DNA of 64,000 nt from Candidatus Pantoea bituminis (GTDB lineage Bacteria; Pseudomonadota; Gammaproteobacteria; Enterobacterales; Enterobacteriaceae): assembly GCF_018842675.1 (NCBI RefSeq), contig NZ_JAGTWO010000004.1, positions 3,286,001-3,350,000 of the forward strand, read 5' to 3'. Of this stretch, positions 1,200 to 58,553 are shown piece by piece (position 1 is the first letter of the stretch; each line of letters begins with the position of its first letter). The notes under the pieces are model-generated. The model did not search any database. It was not told the origin of the DNA and saw only the letters and a program-made list of their open reading frames with translations. The translations under genes were made by a program, and so were the position numbers.

Positions 1200-2419
1200 A
1201 TGCAAATCAAGAAAGATTCCTACCTTGTTACCGATCCGTCTGGCGTTTGGATAGTCAGGATAGCCATTCCTCCATACATGAAGCATTTCTTCGATGGAAA
1301 GAGCTACTTCATACGCTCAACAGGGACGGGAGATATCAGGAAAGCAAGACTGTTTAGAGATAGTGTGGCTACGGAGTTTAATAGCCTTCGCGAGCAACTT
1401 AGACCTAAAGAACCTGGGTCACGAGTTGAGCAGATTCTTGGTGAACTTCGCCAGATCAGCGTGATTGCTAAAGATGCGCCCTCTCCTTTACTGAGCGTTC
1501 AAACACATGTCCAGACTTGCCCCTCTCTATTGAATATGCGTGACGTTTATCTCGTGCAATTCAGCGAGAAAAGAAAGCTGACCACACTGTCAAAAACTAA
1601 TAAGGCTGTTGAAGTACTGTTATCACATCTTAAAAAGCGGGACATTCAGCTTAGGGATATAAACCGTACTGTCGTGACGGGCTGGCTTGATATCCTGAAG
1701 ACTGAAAAAGCCCCACAGACGATACAAAACTACATCAGCGCTTTGGCTCAAATATGGGATCTCGCACGGAACCGTTATCACGATGCACCCCAAGATAATC
1801 CCTGGCGAGGTCATGGGCTGGAAGCGAAAAGCAGCAAAGTCAATTATGAGGTATTCACTCATATAGAACTGGCACAGGTGTTCGCTGAGTTTGACGGTGA
1901 TGCAGAGATGCAAGCTGTAACTTTGATCGGAATGTATAGCGGGATGCGGCTTAATGAGATCTGCTCCCTGAAAACAGACAATATAAAGACAATTGAAGAT
2001 GTGATGTGTTTTGATATTTTTGAAGGTAAGACTAAGGCAGCGTCACGCTTAGTTCCCGTTCACAGCCAAATAATTACACTTGTTGAATCATTGCATCAGA
2101 CGCCTCATAACGGCTTCTTATTCTATCGGGCATCCTTGATTAATCGTGCAGATGGTAAGCGCTCTACATGGCATACACAGCGTTTCACAAGGGCAAAGCG
2201 TAAAGCCTTGGGGAGTCAAGGACGGATCGGAAAGTGTTCCACAGCTTACGTCATGAGTTTGCTCAACAGCTTGATCGAGCACAAGTACCAGAGGATAGGA
2301 TCGCTTTACTTATGGGGCATGAGCGAGGGCGAACTGAGAGCTTCAAAACATATAGTAAACGAGGGAGAATCACAGAGCTGTCGAAGTATGTAGAAATGAT
2401 TAGTTTTCGCTTAGTGTAA
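1200..2419 (+). CDS. Tyrosine site-specific integrase (frame broken at 2231)
   Basis: Phage-type tyrosine recombinase, about 406 residues, expected to integrate and excise the island at leuX. Catalytic parts are visible: Arg in SGMRLNEICSL near residue 250, then H-x-x-R as HSLRHEF, His in LLMGHERG and the nucleophile Tyr in FKTYSK. The last three lie in a different frame from the first. The shift falls at the AAA run 2231-2233; one more A gives GRIGKVFHSLRHEF without a gap. This matches the single-base homopolymer losses across the window, so it may be a sequencing error. If real, the integrase would lose its His/Tyr half. The start lies 124 bp inside the distal att repeat. Confidence 0.85.
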
Positions 2420-2526
2420 ACAGCACTGTTATAACCACTTATCTTTTGGTTATGATTATATCCATTATGCGTTGTGCATACTCGTCTAAGGGATTCCACT
2501 AACTCCCTTTCAACATCACGTGCTTT

Positions 2527-2530
2527 GGAG
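2527..2530 (+). promoter_or_regulatory. Ribosome binding site deciding the TTG start at 2537
   Basis: GGAG lies 6 bases before TTG 2537. No comparable site precedes the upstream GTG at 2474. Confidence 0.55.
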
Positions 2531-2536
2531 CGGAAC

Positions 2537-3454: not shown

Positions 3455-3456
3455 TA

Positions 3457-3491
3457 TAAAAACCCCGAACAGCTTTTAGGCCGAACGGGGT
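3457..3491 (-). terminator. Terminator after the tape-measure gene
   Basis: Minus strand: ACCCCG pairs with CGGGGT across a 17-18 nt partly paired loop, followed by TTTTTA. It lies just past the stop codon at 3497 and ends the leftward transcript. Confidence 0.7.
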
Positions 3492-3496
3492 CACGG

Positions 3497-5691
3497 CTAA
3501 TTACCTCTGAGCAACGATGATGGACTGAATCCAGCATTATCACCTGCCCCTTGCCAACTACCTTGCAGACCCTGAGCAGACATCATCTGGAACTCGTGTT
3601 GCTGCTGAACAGCGTCAAGGGCCACTTTTTGGATAGAGCCGTCTGGCATGGTCACATTAAGCGCACCAGAGTTGACAATCTCCAGCTTAAGAGGTGCAAA
3701 GGTGATAGGTTTCTGTGCTGGAGGTAGGTAAGCAGCGCGATTTGCGATTTCTCCAGAGTATGCTGGATAGCCCGTAGCAGATGGCAAAGGTGATTGCTTA
3801 ACTGTACTAATAACACCATCAAGCCAGTTAAGACCTGTATCCACCCAGCTACCTTCAACCACGTTTCCACCGCGATTAGTTTTGGTGCCATCCCAGCCCA
3901 TAGCTTTGTGAAAAGCTGGAACCCATTGATCAAACACAAGATTACCGAGTTCTTTACCTAAGACAACGGCTGCTGCAATAGCAAAAGTTCGTCCTGCTGC
4001 TCCCATCACGCCACCGATTCCACCTAAGCCAGCCATCTGACCAACTTTAGAGATTCCCGCTAATGCGAGCTTACCTGCAACAACAGCGATCAACACGTCG
4101 AACCACTCGTTAAAGACGCCTGAGAGCCTCTGAAGGTTGCTCTGAGTAGATTTGTCGAGACCATTATAGAAGTCTGTCCAGTGCTCTGTTGCAAGCCCTG
4201 CATATCCAGAGAGGTTCATTGCTGCTTTATTAGAACCTTCTGCAAGGTCACTGATCCTGTCTGCAAGGTAGCCTACTCCATTGGCTGCTGGTGTTAATGC
4301 CACTCCGAGATTGTCAGCGGAGTCGGTCAGGGTAGCAAACAGTCTGACCATAGGCTTTTCCATCTGATCGAAGAAGTCACGTTTAGCAAATTGCATAGAA
4401 CCAGCCAGACGGCCCTGAGCTGCAATGATATTCTGCTGCGCCATAGTCTTCTGCTGGTCAGTTGGTTTCATAACCTTGAGGGCATCTGCTACGAATGCGC
4501 TACCGGGTACGGTCTTGTAGTATTCTTTTAGCTGGCTACTGTTCGTAAATCCGTGGAGCTTTTGCAGACCTTTGACCAGCGCTGGCGAGGCATTTACCAC
4601 CTGTAAAAATCCTGACCGAGGAGGTGCGCGGAGACGCTAATTTGTTGAAGCGCATAGTTGAGTCTGCCTACTGCTTGCGGATCCATACCTGTTGTATGCG
4701 AAAAAACGCTTTCGTTTTCAAATAGTTCGGCGATTTGATCATTTTTGAAGCTATCCGGCATGGTCATACGCATCTGAGCCATTTGCTCACGTGTCTGTAA
4801 CGGGTCTAAACCGTAGCTACGAGAAGTCTGATCCGCTTTCAAGGTCATGCGAGTATTTTCAGCTTCATCACCATATGCCGCCACGCCCATAGTGTGTGCC
4901 TGCTGGAATTTACCACCGATGGTGATTGATTCCTGAAGAAAATCCAGTGCTCTGTTTAGTGCAAAGAAGCCTGCTACAAGCCCACCTGCGGAGTCTGCAA
5001 GACGTGACAATCCATTAGCAGCATTAGACGCTTCGAGAGCCTGAATGCGCTGTGCTGCACGCTGCTGTGATGCTAAACGTTGAGTCTGAGAGAACTCATA
5101 GTTAAGAGTACGGAGATTTTGACGGAACCCACGCATATCACCAGCGGCAGTGGACTCCATTCTCAGACGTTCAAGGCGTGAACGGTACTGTGCAGCACGC
5201 TCAGCATCACGATTAACCATCTGACCGTAGAAGCCTGATGTCAATTGGCGTTGGTGGATATCCTCAATACGTTGACGAACGCTAACGCGAGATTGGCCCG
5301 ATCCCTGTCGAGGTAGCGGAGGTAATGGTGGTGCAGACCCACGGATTCGATATGCATCACGCATTGCTTTACCCACTTTACGGGCAGCGGCAAGACCTTC
5401 TGCCTCATAGCGGTTAAAGAGACCGCTGTTAGCCTGTCCGATAGCAAATCCACGTGACAGAGACTTGTTGATATTTTTTCCCGCAAGGGCAGCACGCTTC
5501 TCAATGTTTTTGAAAGTAGTGTTTAGAGCTGAGGAACGGTCTTTGGCAAAGGGGCGATTAAGTGATTTTTCAATGCGGTTAGCTATAGGCAGGATTTGCT
5601 TTTCCAGTTTTACCAGACCACGTAAGACATTTTCAGAAAAGCCCATTTGGATAACAAATTCATCTACGACTTGTTTATTTGATGCAGTCAT
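3497..5691 (-). CDS. Phage tail tape-measure-like protein (frame broken near 4605)
   Basis: Two overlapping frames (5691-4594 and 4600-3497) form one protein of about 730 residues. The junction is a run of five T (plus-strand A 4605-4609); a sixth T gives GQDFLQVVNASPALVKGL, a motif typical of the conserved core of tape-measure proteins. The N-terminal 240 residues are charged and helical, then come hydrophobic helices (LVAGFFALNRALDFL) and, near residues 540-600, a Gly/Ala-rich membrane-like stretch. In tailed phages such proteins set tail length and enter the host membrane. At this size a tail would be short. No other recognisable tail, baseplate or head gene is present. The break is probably an under-called homopolymer; programmed -1 slippage on TTTTT is possible but would be atypical inside a tape measure. 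Confidence 0.65.
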
Positions 5692-5724
5692 TCATGTTTC
5701 TCGCCTTTAATTAGGAGATATATA

Positions 5725-16124: not shown

Positions 16125-16760
16125 ATGAAAGGCTTCAACATTGCGATTTACTTCGATCCCGATCTCATAAAAGCCTGCGTACACGACCCGGATGGCAGCT
16201 ATATCAACAAAAAATTCGAGTACGAAGACGGTGTAATTGAAGAGATATACCAATGGCTTGAACAATACGAACCGAACAAAACGCATATCTGCCTGATTGA
16301 GAATGAAACTGCCGAGTTGCTCGCAGATGAACTGGTCGATAGCGGCTACCATGTGCATCAGGTCACCATGCATCAGCTGCTGAACTGGTTTGCAGCTGAG
16401 CCGCCTTCTACGCCAGATGGCACACCGATGCGCGCCATGCTGCGCTACCTTGAGGAAGAACAGCCGCGCGAATATGAGTCGCGTACGCCGCAAACCGAAG
16501 AGCTCATGGAGATGTTTGACGAGCTGGATGCGCTGGAGATGGCGGACGATACCGATGATGAAGACAGCTTGCCCGACGCCATTTTGCGCATTATGAAGAA
16601 GCAAAAAGTGAATGCCACTCACGCTGCTCAGCAGTTAATTCCCGACGTGAATGAGCGCATCCGTGAACATTTGATGCAATATCCTGAATTGATGACGCCT
16701 GAAATTTTACAAGACTTTTTCCCGGAACTGTTAGAAGCGCTTGAACGCCCGAAACACTAA
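16125..16760 (+). CDS. Unknown acidic protein, 211 aa, upstream of marC
   Basis: Not recognised. A cytoplasmic, very acidic protein. The N-terminal half is an alpha/beta unit ([62 protein letters not shown]) that looks like a small Rossmann-like or NYN-like fold. A Glu/Asp-rich linker and a helical C-terminus ([36 protein letters not shown]) follow. It lies 49 bp upstream of marC on the same strand, so co-transcription is likely. Nothing visible defines a function. Confidence 0.75.
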
Positions 16761-16809
16761 AAATGTGCGTCAGCATCCCGCTGACGCTTCATTCATAGAG
16801 GGAAACGGC

Positions 16810-17474
16810 ATGCTGGAACTCTTAAAAGCTATCGGATTAGGATTAGTGGTGATCCTACCGCTCGCCAACCCGCTCACTACCGTGGCGCTGTTCTTAGGAT
16901 TAGCTGGCGACATGAGTTTCAGCGAGCGTAATCATCAGGCCTTTCAGGCTTCAGTTTACGTTTTTGCCATCATGATGGTGGCGTGGTACGCCGGTAACGC
17001 GGTGCTGCACACCTTTGGCATCTCGATTCCAGGCTTGCGTATTGCGGGTGGATTGATTGTCGCGTTTATCGGTTTTCGCATGCTGTTTCCGACTAAAGCG
17101 GCGGGACAATCGGTTGAAGCTGAACAAAAGCTGGATGAGCTAGAAAAGAAAGAAACGGTGAATATCGCTTTTGTGCCGTTAGCCATGCCGAGTACCGCCG
17201 GGCCTGGCACCATTGCGATGATCATCAGTTCAGCCTCTACAGTAAGAAGTGGCGAAGATTTCCCTGACTGGGTCATCACTGTGGCGCCGGTTATTATCTT
17301 TTTTTGGTGAGTCTGATTCTCTGGATTTCGCTGCGCTGTTCAGGCGGGATTATGAAGCTGGTCGGCAAAAGTGGCATTGAAGCCATTTCGCGCTTGATGG
17401 GCTTTTTGCTGGTCTGTATGGGCGTGCAGTTTGTCATCAACGGCGTGCTGGAAGTGGTTCACGCGTTTCATTGA
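16810..17474 (+). CDS. marC: MarC-family inner membrane protein (frame broken at 17299-17305)
   Basis: 221 residues if the frame is repaired, close to E. coli MarC throughout: [83 protein letters not shown] and [23 protein letters not shown]. It is a UPF0056 protein with about six membrane helices; its transport role is unproven. The frame ends early at 17310 because a T run has seven bases; an eighth restores the last helices and a stop at 17472-17474. GAGGG lies before ATG 16810. The marRAB operon that is its neighbour in E. coli is absent. Its last 55 bases are duplicated twice downstream. Confidence 0.9.
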
Positions 17475-18380
17475 GAAATTCGATCGGTCTTCAACTCACT
17501 CGAGCAGTCTTTTCACTCCCATCAACAACTCACTCGATCAGTCTCCTTCCCCATTTATGGGGGAGGATAAAGGTGGGGGCATTGCGCAGAGGAATATCCT
17601 GCCCGCTGTCCCCCATCCTAACCTTCCCCCATAAATGGGGGAAGGGACCGATCGGAGAGTAATTAAGCTTCTCCCATATCTGTATGGGCGTGCAGTTTGT
17701 CATCAACGGCGTGCTGGAATTGGTACACGCGTTTCATTGAGAGATTCATCGGTCTTCAACTCACTCGATCAGTCTCCTCCCCCATTTATGGGGGAGGATT
17801 AAGGTGGGGGCATTGCGCAGAGGAATATCCTGCCCGCTGTCCCCCATCCTAACCTTCCCCCATAAATGGGGGAAGGGACCGATCGGAGAGTAATTAACCT
17901 TCTGCCATAAATGGAGGAAGGGACCGATCGGAGAGTGATTAACCTTCCCCCATAACGGTATGGGCGTGCAGTTTGTCATCAACGGCGTGCTGGAAGTGGT
18001 TCACGCGTTTCATGGAGAGATTCATCGGTCTTCAACTCACTCGAGCAGCCTTTTCACTCCCATCAACAACTCACTCGATCAGTCTCCTTCCCCACGTGTG
18101 GGGAGGACTAAGGTGGGGGCATTGCGCAGAGGAATATCCTGCCCGCTGTCCCCCATCCTAACCTTCCCCCATAAATGGGGGAAGGGACCGATCGGAGAGT
18201 GATTAACTTTCCCCATAAATGGAGGAAGGGACAGATCGGAGAGTGATTAACCTTCCCCCATAAATGGGGGAAGGGACCGATCGGAGAGTAATTAACCTTC
18301 TGCCATAAATGGAGGAAGGGACCGATCGGAGAGTGATTAACCTTCCCCCGTAAATGGAGGAAGGGACCGCTCGGAGCAGC
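17475..18380. repeat. Array of palindromic repeats with duplicated marC 3' ends
   Basis: 906 bp holding about a dozen copies of a 24-bp palindrome of type CCTTCCCCCATAAATGGGGG plus AAGG, usually followed by GACCGATCGGAGAGTRATTAA. Copies with centres at about 17555 and 17785 are in reverse orientation relative to the rest. Two larger units (about 266 and 276 bp) start with partial copies of the last 50-55 bp of marC, at about 17681 and 17959. The downstream end is a simple tandem run of the short unit (18162, 18207, 18251, 18297, 18341). It is REP-like and non-coding. Confidence 0.92.
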
Positions 18381-19644
18381 TTAGTGTTGAAGTGACTTAC
18401 GTACTTCCGCTACCTGATCTTTGCTCACCGCTGGCGCCTGGTTGCTCCAACCCTGGCGAACGAAGGTGGCGAGCTGCGCCACTTCTTCATCACTCAGGCG
18501 ACTCCCAAAGCCCGGCATCGCCAGCGTCGACGGTGCTTTCTCTGTTGACGGTTGCTGAGCACCCACCAGAATGGTGTGGATCAAACCGGTTGGATCTTTT
18601 GCATTCACGATGGTTGCCTGATCCAATTCCGGGAAGATCCCCGGCGCACCTTTACCGGTGACAAAGTGACATGCGCCACAGTTGTCGAGATAAAGACGTT
18701 CGCCTTCGCTCAGGTTTTTCGCTGCCGTCAGTTTGGCTTCAGTCGCCTGCTGCGCCTGCACATTACTCGCCTGCAACGCTGGATTACCCCCAATGAACTT
18801 CAGGTAAGCCGCAATCGCTTTCAGATCGGCATCGGTCATGTGTGAGCTGCTGTGTTCAATAACAGACTTCATCTCACCGCCCACCGCAGCTTTGTCATTA
18901 CGTCCAGTTTGCAGGTATTCAACAATCTCCTGCTCACTCCAACGCGGCATACCACGCAGCGAAGGCACATCCCAGTTATTCAGGCTGCCACCCGCCAGGA
19001 ATTGATCATCCCCGCTGTCGAGCGATTTCTCGTTCATGCCTAAACCACGTGGCGTATGACAGCTGCCGCAATGGCCGAGACTTTCTACGATATAAGCACC
19101 GCGGTTGATCTCTTCAGATGCGCCGCCAATTGGCTGGAACGGTTTGTCCGTGGTGAACGCCCAGTTCCAGAAGCGCATGCCCCAACGCTGGCTGAACGGG
19201 AAGCTCAGCTTTGTTTCAGAAGGCTGTTCAGCACTCGGCTTCACACCCTTCATGAAGTAAACGTACAGCGCGTGCATATCGGTGTCGCTGATCTTGGCGT
19301 AGTCCGGGTAAGGCATCGCCGGATAAAGGCGTGAGCCGTCCGGCAGAACGCCTTTACGTACCGCGTCAGAGAACTGCTGCTCGGTGTAATTACCGATACC
19401 GTGCTCTTTGTCTGGCGTGATGTTAGTGGAGAAGATGGTGCCAAGATTCGACTCAATCGCCAACCCCCGCGTAATCGGGCTTACCCGAAACCGAGTGGCA
19501 CGCCATGCAATCGCCAAGACGAGATAAATACTCGCCCTGCTTGATCAGTTGAGCGTCATCTTCTGCGTGCGCCTGCACCGCAAATCCGCTGGCAAGCAGC
19601 AAGGCGTTGGCGAATAAGAATGATTTTAAATTCAGCTTGTTCAT
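18381..19644 (-). CDS. Triheme cytochrome c subunit of a periplasmic (gluconate-type) dehydrogenase; frame broken at 19464-19468
   Basis: About 420 residues. It has a Sec signal peptide (MNKLNLKSFLFANALLLASGFAVQAHA) and three CxxCH haem sites: CMACH, CGSCH and CGACH. This is the cytochrome c subunit of FAD-dependent gluconate 2-dehydrogenase or the closely related ketogluconate, sorbitol and alcohol dehydrogenases, passing electrons to ubiquinone at the outer face of the inner membrane. Two overlapping frames join at a run of five G; a sixth gives PDYAGGLAIESNLG without a gap. It is the last gene of a three-gene leftward operon, 4 bp after the flavoprotein. The exact sugar-acid substrate cannot be read from sequence. 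Confidence 0.88.
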
Positions 19645-29913: not shown

Positions 29914-31439
<1,526 letters not shown>

Positions 31440-41317: not shown

Positions 41318-43463
41318 GCCTGCTCCTCTTCCGCCATTTTCTTCAGGGTGACGTAATCGGGCTTGCCGCTACCCAGCAGCGGCAGCTGTTTCACCACGCG
41401 AATATCACGCGGCAGCGCCAACTCCGGCGCACCCATCTCACGCGCGGCTTTTTGCAGGCGATCGCGTGCCAGTTCGTTATCGGTGGTAAACAGCACCAAG
41501 GCTTCACCACGATTTCCATCCGGGCGCAGCGAAGCCGCATGCTGCTTATCCGGTGAAGCTTTCAGCGCGATCTGCTCAACGACCTCCAGCGAAACCATTT
41601 CTCCTGCGATTTTAGCAAAGCGCTTGGCGCGGCCCTGGATCTGGCAAAAACCGCCTTCATCAAAGCTGACGATATCACCGGTATCGTACCAACCCGCTTC
41701 CATTTGCCCTTCGCCATTATCCGCCACCGGCAGTTCCAGCACGCCAGGGTTCTCAACGCGCAAATAGCCTTTCATGATATTCGGCCCACGCAGTTGCAAT
41801 CGTCCGCCCTTCTCAATGCCCGGCACCGACATCAAACGCGAATCCATGCCCGGCAGAATGCGGCCTACGGTATGCGCCTTCGCCGCCATCGGCACGTTAA
41901 TCGCCACCACTGGCGCGCATTCAGTCACGCCGTAACCTTCAAGGATGCGTATGCCATATTTTTCCATGTAGACCTGACGGGTGTTTTCCTGCAATTTTTC
42001 CGCCCCAGCCACCACATAGCGCAAGCGAGCAAAATCGTACGGGGCCGCGAAGCGCGCATAGTTGCCAAGGAAGGTTGACGTGCCAAACAGCACGGTGCAG
42101 TTTCGGTCGTACACCAGTTCCGGCACGATGCGGTAATGCAGCGGGCTGGGATAAAGAAATACCTGCGCGCCGGTCATCAGCGGCGTAAACAGGCCAACCG
42201 TTAAGCCAAAGGCGTGAAACAGCGGCAGCGCCGACATGAAGCGGTCACGCGGGGTAAAATCCGCCACGGTGCGAATCTGCTCAACGTTGGCCAGCAGGCT
42301 TTTATGCGAATGCACCACACCTTTGGGATTGCCTTCCGATCCCGAGGTAAACAGCACCATCGCGGCGTCTTCGGGCTGCTGCTTAACCTGCGCCCGGCGC
42401 GGCATCAGCAGATGCGCAAGGATCCAGAGCTTGTCCTTGAGCGTTACCGTCTCTTTCAAGTCTTCCAGATAGATCCACTGCACGTCGCTCAAGCCTTGCG
42501 GCAGATGCCACAAGTCCCCTTTGTCGAGGAACTGGCGAGACGTAAACACCGTTTTCACCTGCGAAGCCGTTAGTGCAGCGCGCATGCCGTTGACGCCCGC
42601 AGTGTAGTTCAGCATCGCCGGAACGCGGCCACGCATGGAGGCACCGAGAATCGCCGCAGCCGTTACGGTGGCATTGGGCAGAAGCAGGCCAACAACCTCT
42701 TTTGGCTGGCTATAACGCTCAAGGATGCGTCCCACGCCCAGCGTTTTTTCAGCAAACCGGTGTAGCTGTCGGGTGTGAAATTGACATCTTCAATGCAGCG
42801 TTTGAACGCGCCGTAGCGGATACGCGCATTGAGAAACGCGTCGAACAGCGTTTCACGCGGGCGTACCGCCATGCGGGCTTCCATCATGACATGATGCAGA
42901 TGTTCGCCGGCTAAAATGCGGCGCTCGCGTGCCCGTTTTGCGTCGGGCATAGGAATACGTGTCCCAGGCAAAATGCTCAAGGTAATACGCGGGAAAAGGC
43001 GGCGTTTGAATACGCCCGCCAGGCGACCAAACGGCGAAAATTCTGCACCGTCGATACGCATCGGCACCACGCTCGCGCCCGATTTTGCCGCCACAAAACC
43101 GGCACCGCTGTAGATCTTCATCAGCGATCCGGTAACGGTAATGCGGCCTTCCGGGAAGATCACTACCGGACGACCGCTGTTGACTACCTGAACCAGATGT
43201 TTGATCGACATCGGCTTGGTGGGATCCAGCGGTACGAAGTCGATAAACGGTTTGATCACCCGCATGAACCATTTTTCGCTGATCGTCGAATAGACAGCGA
43301 AAACCGGTTTGATGGGTAAGAACAGCGCCAACAGCATGCCGTCCAGAAACGACATGTGGTTGGGCGTGATGAGCACCTTGTCTCTATGCAATTCAGCGAC
43401 ATCACCACGCAGCTCGACACGCCATAACAGGCGGAAAACCAGACGTAAGATTTTGAATAACAT
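41314..43463 (-). CDS. aas: Bifunctional acyl-ACP synthetase / 2-acyl-GPE acyltransferase Aas (frame broken at 42744-42749)
   Basis: About 717 residues when repaired. The N-terminal acyltransferase domain has NHMSFLD (H-x4-D, residues 36-42), [15 protein letters not shown] and [10 protein letters not shown]. The C-terminal adenylate-forming domain has [26 protein letters not shown] and [16 protein letters not shown]. It activates fatty acids to acyl-ACP and re-acylates imported lysophospholipid. A run of six A breaks the frame; a seventh joins [22 protein letters not shown]. In E. coli aas-lplT lies beside omrA/omrB and galR; here about 15 kb of efflux genes separates them. Confidence 0.95.
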
Positions 43464-44927: not shown

Positions 44928-47900
44928 TCAGGATTCCGCATGGCGCAAACGGCGCCATTGACGTTGAGTTGCGCGGCTCAAACGATCGAGCCAGAGGTAA
45001 ATAACGGGCGTGGTGAACAGCGTCAGCAGCTGGCTCAGCGCCAGACCGCCCGCAATCGCAATGCCCAGCGGGCTGCGCAGATCAGCATCGCCGCCACTGC
45101 CCAGCGCCAAAGGCAAGGCACCGAAAAAGGCCGCCAGCGTGGTCATCATGATCGGACGAAAGCGCATCAGGCAGGCTTGAGTAATCGCCTGCTGCGGCGA
45201 CATGCCCAACCTGCGTTCTGCATCGATGGCAAAGTCGATCATCATGATGGCGTTCTTCTTCACGATACCAATCAGCAAAATAATGCCGATCAGGGCGATA
45301 ACCGTGAGTTGCGTACCGGTGAGCAGCAGCAGCAGCAGCGCGCCTACGCCCGCCGAAGGCAACGTAGAAAGAATGGTCAGTGGATGGATATAACTTTCAT
45401 ACAGCACGCCCAACACGATATAGACCGCCGCCAGCGCCGCCAGGATCAACCACGGCATGGTGGCGGTGAGCTGCGCAAACGCCGCGGCGGTACCCGCAAA
45501 ACCAGCCTGGATCGTCGAAGGCAAACCGAGTTTCGCCATCGCCTGTTTGATCAGCACCTGCGCCTGTTCCAGCGAAACGCCATCATTGAGGTTAAACGCC
45601 ACGGTGCTGGTCGCTGATTGGCCCTGATGCGTCACTGACAGCGGCGCATTGCCACCCACAAACGTGGCGAAGGCCGACAGCGGAATGCGGTCGCCATTAT
45701 CGTTAATGACATAAAGCTGCTTGAGAATTTCTGGGTCGCGCGTGTAGCTATCCTGCAAACTCATCACCACGTGATACTGGTTCAGCGTGTGATACAGCGT
45801 TGCGATTTGCCGCTGGCTAAAAGCATTATTCAGCAGCGTGTCGAGCATCTGAACGTCAACGCCAAGCCGGGTGGCGCGGTCGCGATCAATGTTCATCACC
45901 ACTTCCTGACCGCCCGTTTGCGAGTCGGAATCGACGCTGTTGAACTGCGGAATTGCCGCCAGCGCCGCCTGTACTTTGGGCGTCCATTCGCGCAGCAGAT
46001 CGAGATTGTCAGCCTGCAAACTGTACTGATACGTCGCGTTGGCGCTGCGTCCGCCGATATGCAGATCCTGCGCTGCCATCAGGAACATCTGTGCGCCAGC
46101 GATATGGCTGGTTTTCATGCTCAGGCGGTTCGCCACTTCGGTGGCCGTGGCATCGCGCTGATCAAAATCTTTAAGGCGCACAAAGAAGTTCGCGCTGTTA
46201 CGCGAGCCGAACATCCCACTGCCCATCGATGACATCACGCTTTCCACCGCCGGATCGGACTGAATGATCTTGGTAAACGCCAACATCTTCGGCTTCATCG
46301 CCTGAAACGAGATGTTTTGATCGGCACGCAGCGCGCCCATTAGCAGGCCGGTGTCCTGATTCGGGAAAAAGCCTTTTTCCACCACCGAGAACAGAAACAG
46401 GTTGAGCAGCACCGTTAGCACCAAACTGAACATGGTGAGCTTTTGGTGGCGCATCACCCAATTCAAGCCGCGCGAATAGGCGTCCAACAAGCGATTGAGC
46501 CGGTTTTCAATAAACTGATAGAGCGGATGCGGCCGTTTAGTGACCTTGGGCTTGGGTTTGAGCAGTCGCGAGCAGAGCATCGGCGTCAGGCTCAACGACA
46601 CAAACATTGAGATCAGCAGCGACACGGTGAGCGTCACGGCAAATTCGCGGAACAGACGCCCGACGATGCTGCCCATCAGCAAGATGGGAATGAATACCGC
46701 AATCAGCGACATGGTCATGGACAGCACGGTGAAACTCACTTCCTGCGCACCGCGCAGCGAGGCCCGCAGCGGACTTAGCCCCTCTTCAATGTGGCGCGTG
46801 ATGTTTTCCAGCACCACGATCGCATCATCCACCACGAAGCCGGTGGCGATAATCAGCGCCATCAGCGACAGGTTATCTAGGCTGTAGCCGAGCAGATACA
46901 TCACAGCGCAGGTGCCAATCAGCGAAACCGGCAAGGCCAACGCGGGAATGATCACCGCCTGCAGATTACGCAAAAAGACAAACACCACCGCAATCACCAG
47001 CAGCACTGCTACCAGCAAGGTTTCTTCCGTGTCGTAAAGCGAGGCGCGCACCCCAGGCGAACGGTCCACCACCACTTTCAGCGCGGTATCCGCAGGGAGA
47101 TTTTTTCCAGCTCCGGCAGTTGCGCTTTGATCGCATCAATGGTGTCGAGCATATTAGCGCCCGCCTGGCGTTTGATACCCACCATCACCGAAGGCGACGC
47201 GTTAAGGAACCCCGCCTGATATTGATCTTCAACCGAGTCATAAACGGTTGCGACATCGTGCAGCCGCACCGCTTTTCCCTCTTTATAGCTAACGATCAAA
47301 TCGCGATAGCTTTTGGCTTTATCCAGCTGCCCGTTGCTGTCCACCACCCAAGATTGCGTGCTGCCTTGTAACATCCCTTTTGGCAGATTAGTGGTGCTGT
47401 TGGCGACCGCGCTGCGCACGGTATCGAGTGAAATGCCATATTGCGTCAGCTTCAGCGGTTGCAGATCGATGCGCACCGCAGGCAAGGCGCTGCCCATCAG
47501 CGACACTTCGCCGACCCCTTTCACCTGCCCCATCGCCTGCTCGATTTTGCTTTCAGCAAGATCGTAGAGTTCGCCTGGCGTGCGAGTTGCAGACGTCAAC
47601 GCCAGCATCACTATCGGCGCATCGGACGGATTGGCTTTACGGTAGGTTGGCAGCGATTCCATGGCGCTCGGCAGCAGACTACGCGAGGCGTTGATTGCCG
47701 CCTGAACGTCACGCGCTGCACCGTTGATGTCGCGATCAAGCTCAAACTGCAAAATGATATTGCTGGAACCCTGCGAGCTGCTTGAGGTCATTTCCGTTAC
47801 GCCCGCGATTTGCCCCAGCGAGCGCTCCAGCGGGGTGGCCACCGTTGCCGCCATGGTTTCCGGGCTGGCACCCGCCAGGCTGGCGCTGACCATAATGGTC

Positions 47901-48028
47901 GGGAAATCAACCTGCGGCAGCGGCGCGACCGGCAACAAGCGATAGCCCAAGGCGCCCAGCAGCAGGATCGCCATGGTGAGCAGCAAGGTCGTAACCGGAC
48001 GGAAGATAAACAGCCGGGTCAAATTCAT
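44928..48028 (-). CDS. mdtC: RND permease, MdtC/MuxC type (frame broken at 47101-47106)
   Basis: About 1033 residues when repaired, normal for RND pumps. It begins [47 protein letters not shown], with the first periplasmic domain [25 protein letters not shown] and TM4 proton-relay helix [16 protein letters not shown] (Asp-Asp). A run of six A breaks the frame after PELEK; a seventh restores [25 protein letters not shown]. In the MdtBC pump this subunit works as a heterotrimer with MdtB. Its ATG overlaps the mdtB stop. Confidence 0.92.
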
Positions 48029-51000
48029 TGCCCACTCCGCGTCTGCTGCTGACGGCGTTTCACCCACGCGTTGCCGCGCTGTGCAATCGCGTCAAACCAC
48101 AAGTAAATCACCGGCGTAGAGAACAATGTCAGCGCCTGGCTGACGATCAAACCGCCAACAATCACCAGACCCAGCGGCTGACGCAGCTCTGCGCCCGAAC
48201 CGGACGCCAGCATCAGCGGCAACGCACCCAGCAGCGCCGCCATGGTGGTCATCAGAATCGGGCGGAAACGCAATAAACAGGCTTGATGGATGGCGTCACG
48301 CGGGCTGAGGTGCTGCTTATTCTCCGCTTCTAGCGCAAAGTCGATCATCATAATGGCGTTCTTTTTCACGATGCCGATCAGCAGGATCACGCCAATCAAC
48401 GCGATCAAGCTGAATTCGGTGCCCGCCAGCATCAGCGTCAACAAGGCGCCCACCGCAGCCGACGGCAGCGTGGAAAGGATGGTCACTGGATGAATAAAGC
48501 TTTCATACAGAATGCCGAGCACCACGTACATGGTGATCAGCGCCGCCAAAATCAGCCACAGCGTGTTACCCGTCGCGCTCTGGAACGCTGACGTTTCGCC
48601 CTGATAACGCAGCGTCACGCTCGATGGCAGTTGCAGCTGTTCACGCACCTCGGCAATCGCTTTCTGCCCATCTTCCAGTGAATAACCGGCATTCAGGTTG
48701 AAGGAGATCATCACTGCCGGGAATTGGTTCAAACGCATATGCATCAGCGAACCGGTGCGCTGGTGAAGGGTGGCAATCGACGTCAGTTTCACCATGCCGC
48801 TGCTGCTGGTGGTGGAACTGTCGCTACTGCTGGTGGTGGTTGACGTGGTGCTGCTACTGCTCGACGAGGTGCTGCTGTCGCTCTCTTCGTCTGAACTGCT
48901 GGAAGGTTGCAGGTAAACATCATCAAATGACGCCGGGCCTTGTTGATACCTCGGCGCGACTTCCAGCACCACGCGATACTGATTCGACTGAGTAAAAATA
49001 GTCGACACCAAACGCTGACCAAAAGCGTTGTAGAGCGCGGTATCCACATCCGAAGCAGTAATGCCGTAACGCGCCGCTTTATCGCGGTTCAGCTCGACAT
49101 ACGCCACGCGTCCCTGATCCTGAAGATTGCTTACCACGCCATTAAACTCTGGACGCTGCTGCAGTGCCGCCACCATTTTCGGCGACCACTGCACCAGATT
49201 TTCGCTGTCTGCATCGTCAAGCGTGAACTGATACTGGCTTGGCGTAACCTGGTCGTTGACTGTCAAATCCTGGGCCGATTGCATATAGAGCTGGATACCA
49301 GCCACCTGCGTCGCCGCCTGTTGTAGCTGTTTGATGACTGCATCGGCTTTGTCATTGCGCTCATCAAACGCCTTGAGGTTGATCTGTATACGCCCGCTGT
49401 TCAGACTGGTGTTATTGCCATCTATGCCAATCGTAGAGGACAGACTCTCTACCGCAGGATTCTGCAAAATCACTTTCGCCAGCGCCTGTTGACGCTTTGC
49501 CATCTCATTAAAAGAGACATCCTGCGACGCCACGGTCACGCCCTGAATCAAACCGGTATCCTGCGTCGGGAAGAAGCCTTTCGGCACCATGACATAGAGC
49601 AGCGCGGTCAGCGCGAAGGTGGCCAGCGCCACCAGCAGCGTCAGCTTTTGGTGATTTAACACGATGGTCAGCAAGCGATCATAGCCGCGAATCAGCTTAT
49701 CGAATAATTCACCGCCCTTGCGTGAAAAGCGCGACTGCTTTTCGACTGGAATGTGGCGCAGCAGATAAGCGCACAGCATCGGCGTTAAGGTTAGCGACAC
49801 CACCATTGAGACCAGAATCGACACCGCCAGCGTGATAGCAAACTCGCGGAACAAGCGTCCGACCACGTCGCCCATAAACAGCAGCGGAATCAGTACCGCA
49901 ATCAGCGAAAAGGTTAGTGAAATGATGGTGAAACCAATCTGCTGCGAGCCTTTTAGCGCCGCTTCCATTGGCGGTTCGCCCTCTTCCAGCCGCCGCGAGA
50001 TGTTTTCAACCACCACAATGGCATCATCAATAACGAAACCGGTAGCGATGGTCAGCGCCATCAACGAGAGGTTATTCAGGCTGAAGTCAGCGAGGTACAT
50101 CACACCAAAGGTGCCAATCAACGACAGCGGCACCGCCACGCTGGGGATCAGTGTCGCTGCCACATTGCGCAGGAACAGGAAAGTGACCATCACCACCAGC
50201 GCAATCGAGAGCATGAGCTCAAACTGCACGTCACTGATCGAGGCGCGAATGGTTTGCGTGCGATCCGAAAGAATCGTCATTTTCACGCCATCTGGCAGCG
50301 CGGCCTGCAAGGTCGGCAGCTGCGCCTTAATCCCATCCACGACCTGAATCACGTTTGCACCCGGCTGGCGCTGCACGCTGATGACAATCGCCGGGCTGTT
50401 ATTCGCCCACGCCGACTGGAAGCTGTTTTCCGGCCCTTGCTCAATATGCGCAATATCTTTCAGACGCAGCGCAGCACCGTTTTGATAAGTAATGATTAAA
50501 TTGCCGTACTCGTCTGCGGTACGCAGCTGATCGTTGGCGTCGATAGTGACCGAATGGTATTTACCATCAAAGCCGCCTTTCGAACCGTTAACGTTGCTGT
50601 TGCTAATCAGGGTGTTGACGTCTTCCAGCGTCAAATTGTGCGCCGCCAGCGCTTTTGGATCCATCTGCACCCGAATCGCTGGTTGATGTCCGCCCGCCAG
50701 CGTCACCATGCCGACACCAGAAATTTGCGATAGCTTGAGCGCCACGCGCGTATTCACCAAGTCCTGCACCTGCGTCAGCGGCAGGTTCTCTGAGCTGGCA
50801 GCTAAGGTGATCACCGCGCTGTCCGCCGGATTGACCTTTTGTAGGTTGGCGGGTTTGGCAGATCGCTGGGCAGCAGATTGTTCGCGGCATTTATCGCCGC
50901 CTGCACTTCCTGCTCCGCCACATCCAGCGACAGGTCGAGACTGAACTTCAGGGTGATGATCGATGATCCACCGGAACTGGTGGAGGTCATCTGACTCAAA

Positions 51001-51227
51001 CCCGCCATTTGACCGAGTTGACGCTCCAGCGGCGAGGTCACTGATGAAGCCATCACGTCCGGGCTGGCGCCGGGATAGAGTGTGGTGACCTGAATGGTCG
51101 GATAATCGACCTGTGGCAGCGCCGAGGTGGAAAGAAACTTGTAGGCAAAAATACCGGCGATCAGCACGCCCACCATCAGCAAGATGGTGGCGACCGGACG
51201 CAGGATAAACAGGCGTGACGGATTCAT
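48025..51227 (-). CDS. mdtB: RND permease, MdtB/MuxB type, with a Ser/Thr-rich insert (frame broken at 50837-50840)
   Basis: About 1067 residues when repaired. It starts [32 protein letters not shown] with [25 protein letters not shown]4 has [25 protein letters not shown] run of four A breaks the frame; a fifth gives [19 protein letters not shown]. Between YLQPSSSS and [10 protein letters not shown] (near residues 770-810) lies an insert of about 35 residues, almost all Ser, Thr, Asp and Glu, in a periplasmic loop, which makes the protein longer than typical MdtB. The ATG overlaps the mdtA stop. Confidence 0.9.
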
Positions 51228-52450
51228 TTGGCCTCGGCGGTTGCGGTGGTTTGCGTTTCATCCGCCACCGACACTTTGCTGCCGTTGGTCAGGCGATCAA
51301 TGCCTTCCGTTACCAGACGATCGCCCGGCTCTACGCCTTTTAAAATCGCTTGCCGATCGTCATCCAATGCCGGCCCGGCGGTCACCGCTTTGCGCGTCAC
51401 GGTATTGTCTTTGTTGATCACAAAAACAAAGCTGCCGTCGCTGCTCATCTGCAACGCTTGTGTTGGGATCACCGTCGCGCCTTTCAATAGATTGGTCTGC
51501 AAACGCAGATTAACAAACTGATTAGCGAACAGCGCTTCGTCCTGGTTGGGGAAGGTGGCCTTTAGCTCAACCGTGCCGGTGGCGGTATCGATCTGGTTAC
51601 TGATGAACTTCACCTCACCGTTGGCCAACGTGCTGGTATTGTCCTCATCAAATGCCGTAGCGGGCAGATTTTGATTGTTATGCAGCGCTTTGACCAGCGT
51701 GGGGATATTGCTCTGCGGCACGCTAAACGTGACGGCGGCGGGCTGCATCTGGGTCAGAGTGACTAAACCGGTGCTGCTGGAGCTTTGCACCATGTTGCCC
51801 GGATCAACCTGACGCAATCCAACACGGCCGCTAACCGGCGCAGTGATGCGAGCGTATTCGATACTGAGTTTAGCGCTGTCGATTTGCGCCTGATCGGTGG
51901 CAACCGCACCGCGATACTGCCCTACCGTGGCTATCTGCGTATCCAGATCCTGGCGGGAGAGAGAATCTTGCGCCGCCAGCTTGCGATAGCGCGCCAGCGT
52001 CAGTTCTGCGCTTTTCAGCAGTGCCTGGTTCTCATTTAACGCACCTTGATATTGATTCAACGTCGCCTGATAGCTACGCGGATCAATCTGCGCCAGCAGC
52101 TGTCCTGCTTCAACTTTCTGCCCTTCAGTGAAGTAAACCTTCTCCAGCTGTCCATCGACACGGCTGGTAACGGTAACGCTGGCGCTGGGGATGACGGTGC
52201 CAAGTGCATTGAGATAAACCGGCACATCTGCGGTGCTGGCCACGCCGCTGTGTACCAGCGTTGCGCCGCCGCCCATCATCATGCCAGGGCCACCGCGACC
52301 TGCATGACCGCCTGGCGGCATACCGCCACTCGATCCTTTGCCAAACGGCAACAAACGCCAGGCAACAGCGGCAATAATCAATACCACGATTAAAAGAAGC
52401 AGCCATTTAAGCCAGCGGGAACGAGGGGAACGGGATGCGTTAGTAATCAT
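51224..52450 (-). CDS. mdtA: RND periplasmic adaptor, MdtA/MuxA type
   Basis: 408 residues from ATG 52450; the long upstream open frame has no family similarity. It has one N-terminal membrane anchor ([23 protein letters not shown]), then a Gly/Met-rich linker, half-motif lipoyl domains ([64 protein letters not shown]) and an alpha-hairpin between them, then beta-barrel ([29 protein letters not shown]). It bridges MdtBC and the outer-membrane channel. It is the first gene of the operon mdtA-mdtB-mdtC-OMF. Confidence 0.93.
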
Positions 52451-52885: not shown

Positions 52886-54292
52886 TTATGATTTCCAGCC
52901 GCCGCCCAATGCTTCGTACAGCGTAATTTTTTGATTAAGCTGTCCCAAATGTGCCGCAATCAGCGCCTGCTGTGCCGTATACAGCGAACGCTGTGCGACT
53001 AACACATTGAGATAGTTATCAACGCCTTGCTTATAACGCAAATCTGAATAGTCGTAATCGCGCTGGTTGGCCGCGACCTCTTTTTGCAGCGCCATGAGCT
53101 GGCTCTGCCAGGTATCCTGCCCAGCCAGCGCATCGTTAACATCTTTAAACGCAGTCTGAATCGCTTTCTCATAGTTGGCGATCTCAATACGTTTTTCGAT
53201 TTTAGCGATATCCAGATTGGCCTGATTCACTCCGCCGTCGAAGATCGGCAGAGAGATCGAGGGTGCAAACGACCAGGCGCCTGTACCGCCTTCCAGCAGA
53301 TGCCCCAGTGAGCTGCTGGTTGAGCCGCCCGATGCGGTTAGCGTGATATTCGGGAAAAAGGCCGCGCGCGCAGCGCCGATATTGGCATTAGCGGCTTTAA
53401 GGGTGTGTTCAGCAGCGATGATATCCGGGCGGCGCGTCAGCAGATCCGACGGCAATCCCGCTGGCGTCTGCGGAAATTGCCAGTTGCTGTCGAGTGTGGC
53501 GTTTTTCAGCAGCGTGGCGGGTAAATCAGTGCCAGCCAACAGCCGCAGCGCATCCACATCCTGTCGTACCTGACGCGTATAGCTCGCCACATCCGCTTCG
53601 GCGCTGCGCACGGTGCTTTCTGCTTGTGCCAAATCCTGATCGCTGCTGACGCCGCCGTTGTAGCTTATTTTGGTCAGATCATAGGATTTCTGCTGACTCT
53701 GCACAGTTTGTTCGGCGAGATGCAGAAGATCGTTATCGGAACAGAGCGTTAGCCACGCCGATGCCACCTGTGAAATCAGCGAAATGCGCGTTGCGCGTTC
53801 GGTGGCTTCAGTGGAGAGATAGGTCTCCTGGGCCTGATCGCGCAGGCTACGCAAGCGTCCCCAGAAATCCAGCTCCCATGAAGTCACGCCTAATCCGGCG
53901 TTTAACTCGTGATAAGTCACCGCGCCGGTTGATTGCGTATTGTAGAGGTTCGCAGGTTCATGGGCCGACGTCTGGCTGGCGGTGGCGTTAATCGACGGCA
54001 GCAGCGCAGCGCGATCGATCTGCACCGAGGCACGCGCCTGTTCAACATTCAATGCTGCGACGCGCAGGTCGCGGTTGTTTTGCAGCGACAGGTCGATCAG
54101 CTGGCGCATCGTGGCATCGTTGAAGAAGTTCTGCCACGGCAGATCGGCGACATTGCCGACCGGCGTATTTTGATCGTAATGCGTATCCACCGGCAGCGTT
54201 GGGCGCTGATAGTTGGGCTGTAACGTACAACCAGTTAAGCCAAGGGCGGCCACCAATGGCAGCAGCGTCCAGCGCGTTGCTTTAGTTATCAT
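52886..54292 (-). CDS. RND efflux outer-membrane factor (OprM/AdeK/CusC family lipoprotein)
   Basis: 468 residues from ATG 54292. The lipobox LGLTGC (Cys21) marks an outer-membrane lipoprotein. OEP repeats: NRDLRVAALNVEQARASVQIDRAALLPSINATAS and PSDLLTRRPDIIAAEHTLKAANANIGAARAAFFPNITLTASGG. The C-terminus LYEALGGGWKS is the typical family ending. It overlaps the end of the AcrB-like pump gene by 11 bp, so it is co-translated. The frame upstream to 54397 lies inside the pump gene and is not used. Confidence 0.92.
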   Translation of the reverse strand: MITKATRWTLLPLVAALGLTGCTLQPNYQRPTLPVDTHYDQNTPVGNVADLPWQNFFNDATMRQLIDLSLQNNRDLRVAALNVEQARASVQIDRAALLPSINATASQTSAHEPANLYNTQSTGAVTYHELNAGLGVTSWELDFWGRLRSLRDQAQETYLSTEATERATRISLISQVASAWLTLCSDNDLLHLAEQTVQSQQKSYDLTKISYNGGVSSDQDLAQAESTVRSAEADVASYTRQVRQDVDALRLLAGTDLPATLLKNATLDSNWQFPQTPAGLPSDLLTRRPDIIAAEHTLKAANANIGAARAAFFPNITLTASGGSTSSSLGHLLEGGTGAWSFAPSISLPIFDGGVNQANLDIAKIEKRIEIANYEKAIQTAFKDVNDALAGQDTWQSQLMALQKEVAANQRDYDYSDLRYKQGVDNYLNVLVAQRSLYTAQQALIAAHLGQLNQKITLYEALGGGWKS

Positions 54293-57200
54293 TGTGAACA
54301 ACCTCAGGCTTTTTCTTACGGGAAAAGAGCTGCGAAACCACCACGTAAAACATCGGTACAAAGAAAATGGCGAGGAATGTCGCGGTAAGCATTCCACCCG
54401 CTACCGCCGTACCAATGGAGTGCTGGCTGCCCGCACCCGCCCCGTTTGAGATAGTGAGCGGCAGTACGCCAAGAATAAATGCCATCGACGTCATGATAAT
54501 GGGTCGAATACGCAAGCGTGCTGCTTCTACCGCAGCGTCCACCAGCGTTCTGCCTTCACGTTCGTGCAGCTCTTTGGCGAACTCCACGATCAAAATGGCA
54601 TTTTTCGCGGCCAGCCCAACGGTGGTGAGCAATCCGACCTGGAAGAACACATCGTTTTGCAAACCGCGCAGCAGCACCGCACTGATGGTGCCCAGTACGC
54701 CAAGCGGCACCACCAATAGCACTGAGAACGGAATCGACCAGCTCTCGTAAAGCGCGGCCAGGCACAGGAACACCACCAGCACGGAAATAGCATAGAGCTG
54801 CGCTGTTTGTGAGCCAGACGCCTGCTCTTCATAGGAGATGCCGTACCACTGCACGCGGAAGCCTTTTGGCATTTTCGCGCCAATCTCTTCCACCGCTTTC
54901 ATCGCTTCACCGCTGCTGTAACCTGAGGCTGGCGAGCCGAGAATCTCTTCTGCCGTCATGCCGTTAAAGCGTTCATAGTGCGGTGAACCGCTGACCCATT
55001 CGCCGCTGGCAAAGGCCGAGAACGGCACCATGGTTCCGCTACTGTTACGAAAGTACCATTTGTTGAGATCTTCCGGCGTCACGCGCGAATCGGCTTTACC
55101 CATCAGGTAAACCTCTTTGACGCGGCCGTTATACATGAACTGATCGATGTAGCTGGATCCCCAAGCGACCGACAGGGTGTTGTTGATATCAGCCATGCTC
55201 AAACCCAACGCGCTGGCGCGTTCATCGTTGATCTCCAGCTGATATTGCGGTTCATCTTCCATGCCGTTGAGGCGAACGGCGCTCAGGCGTGGATCGTTGT
55301 TAGCCAGCGCAAGAAACGTGTGCGTGGCATTCATCATTTCCTGATGCGTATGGCCCGCAGTATCTTGTAGATAGAAGTCAAAACCGGTGGCGTTCCCCAA
55401 CTCCATGACCGCCGGTGGCACCATGGCAAAGATTTTCGCGTCTTTATAATTGGCGAAGTGCCCCATGATATTCGCCGCCAGCGTTTTCACGCTCTGGCTC
55501 GATTGGGTACGTTCACTCCAGTCTTTGAGACGGACAAACGCCATAGCACTGTTTTGCCCACGTCCGGCAAAGTTAAAACCGTTGGCCGCAAATACTGTAG
55601 TGACCACCGACGCTTGCTTGTCATGCAGATAGTCGTTGAGATCGTTAATGACTTTTTGGGTGCGCTGCGATGAGGCATTCACCGGCAGTGTGATCTGCAC
55701 CATCATCAATCCCTGATCTTCATCCGGCAAAAAGGTGGTCGGTACGCGAGTGAACAGATAGCCGGTGACGCCAACAATCATCAGATACACCACCAGAAAC
55801 AGGCCGCGACGCGAGATGACTTTGCTGACGCCGCGGGTGTAATGCAGCGTGCCGCTGTCGAACTTGCGGTTAAACCAACCGGCCAGCCCGGTGGTTTTGT
55901 GCTCGGCGGAGGAGGATTTAAGCAACGTCGCGCACAGCGCCGGTGTAAAGATCAGCGCCATCAGCACCGACAGCGCCATGGCTGACACAATGGTGATGGA
56001 GAACTGACGATAGATAACGCCGGTCGATCCCGAGAAGAACGCCATCGGCAGCAGCACCGCCGACAGCACCAAGGCAATACCAAATAGCGCGCCCTGAATC
56101 TGCTGCATCGACTTAATGGTGGCGGTTTTGGGATCGAGCTGCTCTTCGTGCATCACGCGCTCGACGTTTTCCACCACCACGATGGCGTCATCCACCAGCA
56201 ACCCTATCGCCAATACCATGCCGAACATCGTCAGGGTGTTAATGCTGTAGCCAAAAGCAGAAAGAATGCCGAAGGTTCCCAGCAAGACCACTGGCACCAC
56301 CAGCGTGGTGATAAAGGTTGCGCGCAGGTTTTGCAGGAAAATCAGCATGACGAAGAACACCAGCACCACCGCTTCGAGCAACGTTTTCACGACTTCTTCG
56401 ATTGACGCGCTGACCACTGGCGAGGTGTCGTAGGGATATTGCACCTCGACGTTATCCGGCAGCGAATCTTTCAGCGCTTCTACCGTGGCGCGCACCGCTT
56501 TGGCGGTATCCAGCTCGTTGGCGCCTGTTGCCAGACGCAACGCAATACCGGCAGAAGGTTTGCCATCCATGGTTGAGTCGATGGTGTAGCTTTGTGGGCC
56601 TAATGCCACGTTACCCACATCTTTAAGGCGGATCTGCGAACCGTTACTGTTTACCTTCAGCAGCACGTTTTCAAACTGCTTCACGCTGGTGAAGCGTGAT
56701 TTACCCAGAATGGTGGCATTCGTTTTAGCGTCAGGAATGGTCGGCAAGCCGCCGAGCGAACCGGAAGAGACCTGCACGTTCTGGTTATCAATAGCGGTGC
56801 TGACGTCGCTCGGCATCAGGCTGTACTTATAGAGTTTGGCCGGATCGAGCCAGATGCGCATCGCATACTCAGAACCCAATACCATGAAGTCGCCAACGCC
56901 TTTGGTACGCGAGATGGGATCTTCCAGCTTCGATACCAACATATCGGCGAGATCACCGTTACTCAGCTTGCCATCTTTCGACACCAGGCTTATCACCATC
57001 ATGAAGTTTTTTGGTATTTACGAATACGGATGCCTTGCTGTGTGACATCAGTGGGCAGCTGAGATTCCGCCAGAGAAACGCGATCCTGTACCTGAACCTG
57101 AGCGATATCAGGATCAATGCCCTGATTAAAAGTGGCGATGATTTGCGCACTGCCATCGCTGGCGCTGTTCGATTCCAGATAGCGCAATCCATCCAGGCCA

Positions 57201-57409
57201 TTCAGCTGTTGCTCAATGACCTGTACCACGGTGTTTTGCGTGGTTTCGGCGCTGGCACCCGGATACGTCACCGAAATAGAGACGGCGGGAGGTGAGATGT
57301 TGGGATATTGATTAACCGGTAAATTCAGCGTGGCGATAGCGCCTACCAGCATCACAATAATCGCCACAACCCAGGCGAATATTGGACGCTGGATAAAGAA
57401 CGTAGACAT
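54282..57409 (-). CDS. RND permease, AcrB/MexB (HAE1) type (frame broken at 57007-57012)
   Basis: About 1042 residues when repaired. It starts [71 protein letters not shown], the HAE1 signature. TM4 has [22 protein letters not shown] (Asp-Asp proton relay) and [15 protein letters not shown] lies in the second periplasmic loop. A run of six A (minus strand) breaks the frame; a seventh gives [20 protein letters not shown]. It exports hydrophobic drugs, dyes and detergents as a homotrimer. It is the middle gene of adaptor-pump-channel. Confidence 0.93.
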
Positions 57410-57418
57410 GACGTCTCC

Positions 57419-58553
57419 TTATTGGGCCGAGGGATCGGTCATTGTCAGGCTGACACTGTCAGCGCTGGGCATGTCGTTGACGTTAGCCGCCACGGTTTTC
57501 ACTTTGCTGCCGCTATGCACGCTTTGCAGGCCATTCACCACCACTTTTTCGCCGCTGTTCAGACCGCGGGTGATGAGCCACCTTGCCTGGATCATTTCAC
57601 CGGTGGTTACGCTGCGCTGCTCAACGCTGTCGTCAGCTTTCACTACGTAGACATAGGGCTGACCTTTGCTGTCATGCATGATCGCTTCTTGCGGCACCAT
57701 AATTCCCTGCTGCTGTACGCCCTGCGGGAAACTGGCGTGCACGTACATTCCCGGCAGCAGTTCATTGTGCGGATTAGGGAACACCGCTCGCAGCACCACG
57801 CTGCCGGTCGCCTCATCAACATTCACTTCCGAGAAGGCTAATTTGCCTTGCTGCTCGTAAGTGCTGCCATCTTCCAGCGTCAGTTTTACCGCGGCCGCGT
57901 TATCGCCCACTTTCTCTAGCTTGCCGTCGGCCAAGGCTTTGCGCAGGCGCAGGAGATCGGTGGAGGATTCGCTGACGTCAACATAGACAGGATTGAGCTG
58001 TTGAATAGTGGCGAGATAATCGGTTTGTCCGCTAGTGACCAAAGCACCTTCGGTGACCAGTGACCGGCTAATGTGGCCCGTAATCGGCGCTTTAACCAAG
58101 GTGTAATCCAGGTTGACCTTCGCGCTTTCGACATCGGCTTTCGCTTCACGCTCGGCCGCGACGGCATCATCATACGTTTGCTGGCTAATGGCATGTGCAG
58201 CCGCTAAAGGCTGATAGCGTTTTGCCACCCCGCATCGTTTTGCCAGGTTGCATGGGCTTTGTCATAGGCTGCTTGATAAGTGGCCGGATCGATTTGATAA
58301 AGAGGCTGGCCCGCTTTCACTTCGCCCCCTCCGTAAACAGCAGTTTTTGAATCACACCGCTCACCTGCGGACGGACTTCCGCAGTTTTCACTGCAGTCGT
58401 GCGGCCCGGCAATTGAGTCAGCAAGGTTACCGGCTCGCTTTTGAGTGTGACGATGCCAACTTCCGGCGTGGTTGCAGCAGCAGGCTGCTTCGCTCCCTGG
58501 TCACAAGCAGCCAGTAAAAACACCACGCTGGCTGAAATAACTTTCATGCGCAT
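57419..58553 (-). CDS. RND periplasmic adaptor, AcrA/MexA type lipoprotein (frame broken at 58325-58329 and 58228-58231)
   Basis: About 378 residues when repaired. It starts MRMKVISASVVFLLAACDQG with a lipobox (LLAAC). Two G runs are each one base short: the first restores FTEGGEVKAGQPLYQIDPATYQAAYDKA, the second DAGVAKRYQPLAAAHAISQQTYDDAVAAEREAKADVESAKVNLDYTLVKAPITGHI. The hairpin between YDKA and AKRYQ is several residues shorter than in E. coli AcrA. It links the AcrB-like pump to its channel. It is the first gene of the operon, 9 bp before the pump. No TetR-type repressor lies beside it. Confidence 0.88.

Follow-up and report, generated by a model that had tools for sequence, protein, structure and literature searches.

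The frequent interruption of open frames in this stretch of the Pantoea bituminis EnvD chromosome raises the question of whether the bacterium has lost the functions concerned or whether the deposited sequence is at fault. The window (the whole stretch of 64,000 nucleotides that was analysed) spans positions 3286001–3350000 of contig 4 in the EnvD genome, which comprises 5.22 Mb in 5 contigs. A sequence-only reading had attributed fourteen frame breaks in thirteen genes to under-calling of homopolymers in the assembly, and had proposed comparison with close relatives as a check. In that comparison unbroken frames were found at all 14 places. With the true sequence judged from relatives, the breaks are almost certainly basecalling and consensus errors of a nanopore-only R9 assembly.

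Materials and Methods

The Pantoea strains EnvD and EnvH were isolated from asphalt in Israel (PMC9022320) and are the nomenclatural types of P. bituminis and P. haifensis, respectively, under the SeqCode (PMC10665919). The EnvD assembly is described as 5 contigs, the largest being 4,008,183 bp and the chromosome being contig 4, and the EnvH assembly as 10 contigs, the largest being 3,740,753 bp (PMC9022320). Both genomes were obtained with a nanopore R9 flow cell, Guppy 4.4.2 basecalls and Flye assembly, with a reported coverage of 155-fold for EnvD (PMC9022320); the nanopore reads are deposited as SRP316834. A word search of the text of that article retrieved none of the terms polish, Medaka, Racon, Illumina, short read, or homopolymer, and as described there EnvD is a nanopore assembly made without accurate short reads. 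A strain with hybrid Illumina-plus-nanopore data, Pantoea phytostimulans C3, has been published and is reported to have 98.46% ANI to EnvD (PMC12038178).

For the window, 80 kb around the matching place was taken from five Pantoea genomes (G003, G004, G010, G014, and G015), and 220 kb of G051 was added to the relatives later. G004 is Candidatus Pantoea haifensis EnvH, whose ValS is 97% identical to the ValS of the window. The DNA of each open frame of a relative was aligned to the window and lasting frame changes were recorded. Further relatives were used for single loci, i.e., G031 for the integrase, G037 for the gene broken at 4605, and G041, G033, and G038 for the adaptor. The wider scan covered 400 kb to the left of the window, out of the 5.22 Mb genome, and G015 versus G003 served as the control pair for frame changes. 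A site was considered agreed when the changes seen against two relatives coincided in both place and size; 3 of 52 coinciding changes differed in size and were dropped.

Frame Breaks in the Window

A lasting frame change was present at all 14 places, in each case against one or more relatives whose frame is unbroken (Table 1), and the number of breaks claimed from the sequence alone is therefore confirmed. Ten of the sites were seen against the five relatives represented by 80 kb, and eight of these ten, together with both adaptor sites, were also seen against G051. It had been claimed that each break is healed by adding one base. This holds at 13 sites, where the net change is a one-base loss, and fails at 19464, where DNA and protein alignments to all four relatives agree on a net two-base loss and where the relatives' runs within 6 nt are at most 3 long. 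That each repair restores a recognisable family fails at 4605, where neither half matches Pfam, yet the G037 homologue continues uninterrupted for 723 residues. The break reported at 2231 is present relative to G031 but lies slightly before the place first given, at about 2212 by DNA and within 2183–2222 by protein. The absence of insertions was borne out at the 14 sites. Elsewhere in the window four signals were seen against one relative only and were left out of the counts: gains of one base at 36705 (G003) and at 63685 (G010), a gain of five at 39543 (G051), and a loss of one at 24590 (G051). For the window as a whole, coding or not, this is 2.19 sites per 10 kb.

Table 1. Genes of the window with frame breaks, and the relatives that carry an unbroken frame at each place.
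Gene	Position	Strand	Site	Break and support
Tyrosine integrase of genomic island	1200..2407	+	2231	near 2183-2231; G031 only, 67-69% aa identity in two frames
Island gene without known family, two frames	3506..5691	-	4605	near 4606-4609; one 723-aa G037 homologue, no Pfam match
MarC-family transporter gene	16741..17475	+	17299	near 17300; NCBIfam NF008228; 4 relatives
Cytochrome c family gene	18381..19644	-	19464	at 19465, net two-base loss; 4 relatives
HerA/VirB4-like ATPase gene	24591..26092	+	25985	near 3' end; 6 relatives
pepA (leucyl aminopeptidase)	29929..31439	+	30209	6 relatives
argF-type ornithine carbamoyltransferase	36851..37857	+	36897	near 36900; 4 relatives; start placed from the G015 gene
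MFS transporter adjoining aas	40122..41317	-	40943	near 40943; PF07690 just below cut-off in both pieces; 5 relatives
aas (acyl-ACP--phospholipid O-acyltransferase / acyl-ACP ligase)	41314..43463	-	42744	42743-42744; 5 relatives
MdtC-like RND permease, two frames	44928..48067	-	47101	near 47101; pieces searched apart; 4 relatives
MdtB-like RND permease	48025..51261	-	50837	50836-50837; 3 relatives
AcrB/MexB-type RND permease	54282..57409	-	57007	near 57007; 2 relatives
MexA-type RND adaptor	57419..58568	-	58228, 58325	two breaks, near 58229 and 58326; 4 relatives with unbroken gene (G051, G041, G033, G038)

The Loss Signature in the Adjacent 400 kb

In the 400 kb beside the window a frame change relative to G015 was found in 62 of 253 matched genes of EnvD, compared with 11 of 265 in the control pair (Fisher p ~8e-12). 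There were 69 frame changes against G015 and 68 against G003, and 52 of these coincide in place, 49 of them also in size. The 49 agreed sites consist of 45 one-base losses, 2 two-base losses, and 2 one-base gains, so that one-base losses far outnumber one-base gains (sign test ~2e-11). One-base losses occur at a density of 1.76 per 10 kb of coding sequence, which is near the figure for the window, and the window is not special within its 400-kb surroundings.

The losses are concentrated in single-base runs and their rate rises with the length of the run that is left over in EnvD. Leftover runs of 4–6 bases were found at 38 of the 45 losses, where about 4 would be expected for random positions, and the number of losses per 1000 runs was 0.22, 3.35, 14.7, and 41 at leftover lengths of 3, 4, 5, and 6, respectively. 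Of the remaining losses three left a run of 2, three a run of 3, and one a run of 7, the last at a lower rate; A/T runs were involved at 31 of the 45. When the run in the relative's copy was scored instead, a length of at least 3 was found for only 15 of the 65 within-gene one-base losses against G015 and 13 of the 58 against G003, with relatives that differ at ~18% of bases and often have interrupted runs, and with gap placement not normalised; run length in the relative's copy, taken alone, would not show run context. Outside genes losses and gains numbered 47 and 42 against G015, 41 and 21 against G003, and 56 and 36 in the control pair, which is only a weak surplus of losses, and here the expected excess is too small against natural indels.

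Run lengths were also counted as a check that does not involve alignment to relatives. A/T runs of at least 8 bases were found 4 times in 464 kb of EnvD and 0 times in 295 kb of EnvH, as against 26 times in 480 kb of G015, 20 in 480 kb of G003, and 7 in 220 kb of G051. A/T runs of 5–6 were, per base, more frequent in EnvD and EnvH than in G015 and G003 and about equal to G051, and G/C runs of at least 6 were scarce (6 in EnvD and 2 in EnvH; 17 in G015, 10 in G003, and 22 in G051).

Some of the breaks may have another origin. There is a small chance that nearly all of them are sequencing errors while a few are real mutations, as the control pair has frame differences of its own in the 11 genes mentioned, and the two agreed gains and the two-base losses, the kind found at 19464, are less typical of under-calling. 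On the other hand 13 of the 14 sites in the window fit the wider signature in both direction and size.

Breaks in Indispensable Genes

Within the 400 kb beside the window the breaks are distributed as expected of a genome-wide process that is indifferent to gene importance. Two breaks were found in dnaE, which encodes DNA polymerase III alpha, two in ileS, which encodes isoleucyl-tRNA synthetase, and one each in dnaK, ftsI, and uppS. A search with a query related to dnaE or ileS matched two further regions of the genome, which might hold second copies. Essentiality is taken as in E. coli. Eight proteins were searched for family naming, by which these five were named, and fabZ, lspA, and folK gave no match under the strict 1e-80 limit of the search. 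The frames of rpsB, fabZ, lspA, folK, and carA, of which rpsB and carA were outside the searched set, were identified by eye and have one break each. The weakest case among the indispensable genes is ftsI, because the window holds an intact FtsI-like penicillin-binding protein (59115–60842, minus strand), the score of which is below the FtsI family cut-off. As the broken FtsI gene lies at about 3.12 Mb of contig 4, the genome has two FtsI-type genes.

It could be argued that the interrupted genes are genuine pseudogenes, i.e., that genes are being lost after a recent change in lifestyle by a deletional bias in short runs. The breaks do stand in the deposited sequence, several relatives agree on them, and Pantoea includes insect symbionts (one such record is among the relatives). 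Changes at codon positions 1 and 2 relative to position 3 are also slightly more frequent in broken genes with one of two references: the medians for broken and intact genes were 0.162 and 0.137 against G015 (p 0.003), and 0.185 and 0.176 against G003 (p 0.22). The corresponding medians were 0.154 and 0.131 for EnvH (p 0.001) and 0.310 and 0.190 for the control pair (p 0.002). Such an origin is nevertheless highly improbable. Genuine pseudogenisation should spare indispensable genes, and dnaE, ileS, and uppS are broken. Losses should also be accompanied by gains and nonsense changes, whereas gains make up only 2 of the 49 agreed sites and genes with nonsense changes only are not in excess (24 against G015 and 18 against G003 in the EnvD stretch, the control pair giving 26 and 29; many of them are probably open frames on the wrong strand). 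A genome of 5.2 Mb from an asphalt isolate that was grown on agar does not suggest gene loss either, and the signature recurs in EnvH, another species with the same sequencing method, and not in five others (see below). In Sodalis glossinidius, a facultative symbiont, pseudogenes have been described as gene-silencing mutations (PMC7067036). EnvD resembles it in having many interrupted genes and differs in that indispensable genes are among them and in that the losses follow the sequencing method.

Intact proteins from other contigs also argue against pseudogenes. Fragments of Aas, PepA, and IleS were searched, and near-identical intact proteins were obtained for Aas only. The larger Aas fragment is 98.7–99.6% identical to 14 full-length proteins of 716 aa encoded on other contigs. 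The protein goes on in the other frame as the smaller fragment, which is 91.6–99.6% identical to the same 14; its lower values probably reflect the inclusion of a tail read in the wrong frame. The longest contigs behind these proteins match none of the five EnvD contigs in length, and the window itself contains no open frame for such a protein. All 14 Aas proteins with a listed identity of 99–100% are 716 aa long, and the next group is at 94%. Among the matches listed, the best was 97% identical for the pepA fragment and 96% for the ileS fragment. A control with two 20-kb stretches of plasmid of the same species was of no use, as the listed matches were 71–86% identical and mostly short, with two further records counted at 90–95%.

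The Sister Genome EnvH

EnvH has 68 agreed sites, all of them losses, of one base at 63 and of two bases at 5. A frame change relative to G015 was found in 70 of 212 matched genes, and the density is higher than in EnvD. Between EnvD and EnvH one-base losses and gains are nearly balanced (33 and 29), which is the pattern to be expected if both genomes have lost bases. In the region of the window the loss signature was absent from four relatives (G003, G010, G014, and G015); the long stretch, compared for two of these (G003 and G015), also lacked it, as did G051 where it aligns. The 23S rRNA genes were tried as an invariant test, with 7 copies from each of four genomes aligned, and do not discriminate (columns missing in some copy: 4 in EnvD, 5 in EnvH, 6 in G015, and 1 in G003).

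Comparison was possible for 202 genes. EnvD has breaks in 49 of them and EnvH in 67, with 26 broken in both genomes, where 16 would be expected if breaks were independent. In 9 of the 26 doubly broken genes, including dnaK, ileS, carA, uppS, and mdtB, the break is at the same place. A shared ancestral mutation was considered for these common breaks and set aside; G051, which by DNA is nearer EnvD than EnvH in four of the six genes scored against both, is unbroken at the mdtB place. That the same sequence context gave the same error in EnvD and EnvH is the simpler reading, although it is not proved.

Runs of 2–5 bases are short for efficient slippage. The breaking of indispensable genes and the nine shared break places might seem to favour short runs that are real, with full-length protein still being made through transcriptional slippage or ribosomal frameshifting, but this is extremely unlikely given that the leftover runs are only 2–5 bases long at 32 of the 45 losses, that relatives have uninterrupted genes at each site, that near-identical Aas is intact, and that G051 is unbroken at the mdtB place despite its proximity to EnvD. 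It is hardly credible that the losses are real and that the cell tolerates about one break per 5–6 kb of coding sequence, in genes for replication and translation as well, because slippage or frameshifting is widespread at its short runs and in part shared with a sister species.

Origin of the Breaks

Homopolymer under-calling, the cause proposed by the sequence-only reading, is supported by the R9 nanopore-only method, the ratio of 45 losses to 2 gains, the concentration in runs, the breaks in dnaE, ileS, and uppS, and the presence of the signature in EnvH. The probable cause at signal level is that the pore signal hardly varies within a run of one base, and the caller would under-count the run in many reads. 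If such an under-count is systematic, the consensus would keep the error even at the coverage reported for EnvD. Each base lost from coding sequence would then shift the frame and split one gene into two open frames, while the DNA of the organism itself would carry the longer runs. The bacterium thus probably has working copies of the broken genes.

This class of error is already known. In the description of Homopolish residual R9.4 errors are mainly homopolymer indels that shift frames, and a Racon-Medaka pipeline on R9.4 data gave 151–5298 pseudogenes (PMC8011154). The breaks of EnvD are alike in being frame-shifting homopolymer indels, and differ in that truth genomes were used in that work and relatives are used here. 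Similarly the description of Kastor states that MinION deletions follow runs of 2–8 bases, mostly of four to five, and A/T more than G/C (PMC12007338). This agrees with the predominance of A/T runs and of leftover runs of 4–6 among the EnvD losses, although Kastor concerns another organism and also weighs read support. The new element is the occurrence of such errors in the type genomes of P. bituminis and P. haifensis. In the main texts found by a literature search on the two species names the word frameshift is absent.

If the 45 breaks in 256 kb of coding sequence are representative, EnvD has about one break per 5–6 kb of coding sequence and some 800–900 in total. It would therefore be unsafe to conclude from the EnvD or EnvH assembly that genes or efflux have been lost or that the strain is auxotrophic, and the deposited genome needs correction before lost functions are inferred.

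Features at the Left End of the Window

A direct repeat of 64 nt is present at 1037–1100 and 12926–12989, with 84% identity and the first 39 nt identical, and covers an end of the gene for tRNA-Leu(CAA), which lies at 12927–13011. The repeats bound an 11.9-kb stretch of low GC that contains a DUF6538/tyrosine integrase and looks like an island inserted at the tRNA gene. Inside it, in the gene of an HTH_36 protein, a unit of 23 nt occurs twice in tandem (10302–10347). A fragment of a second integrase, with Arm-DNA-bind_3 and Phage_int_M domains, is located just outside the left repeat (422–751, minus strand).
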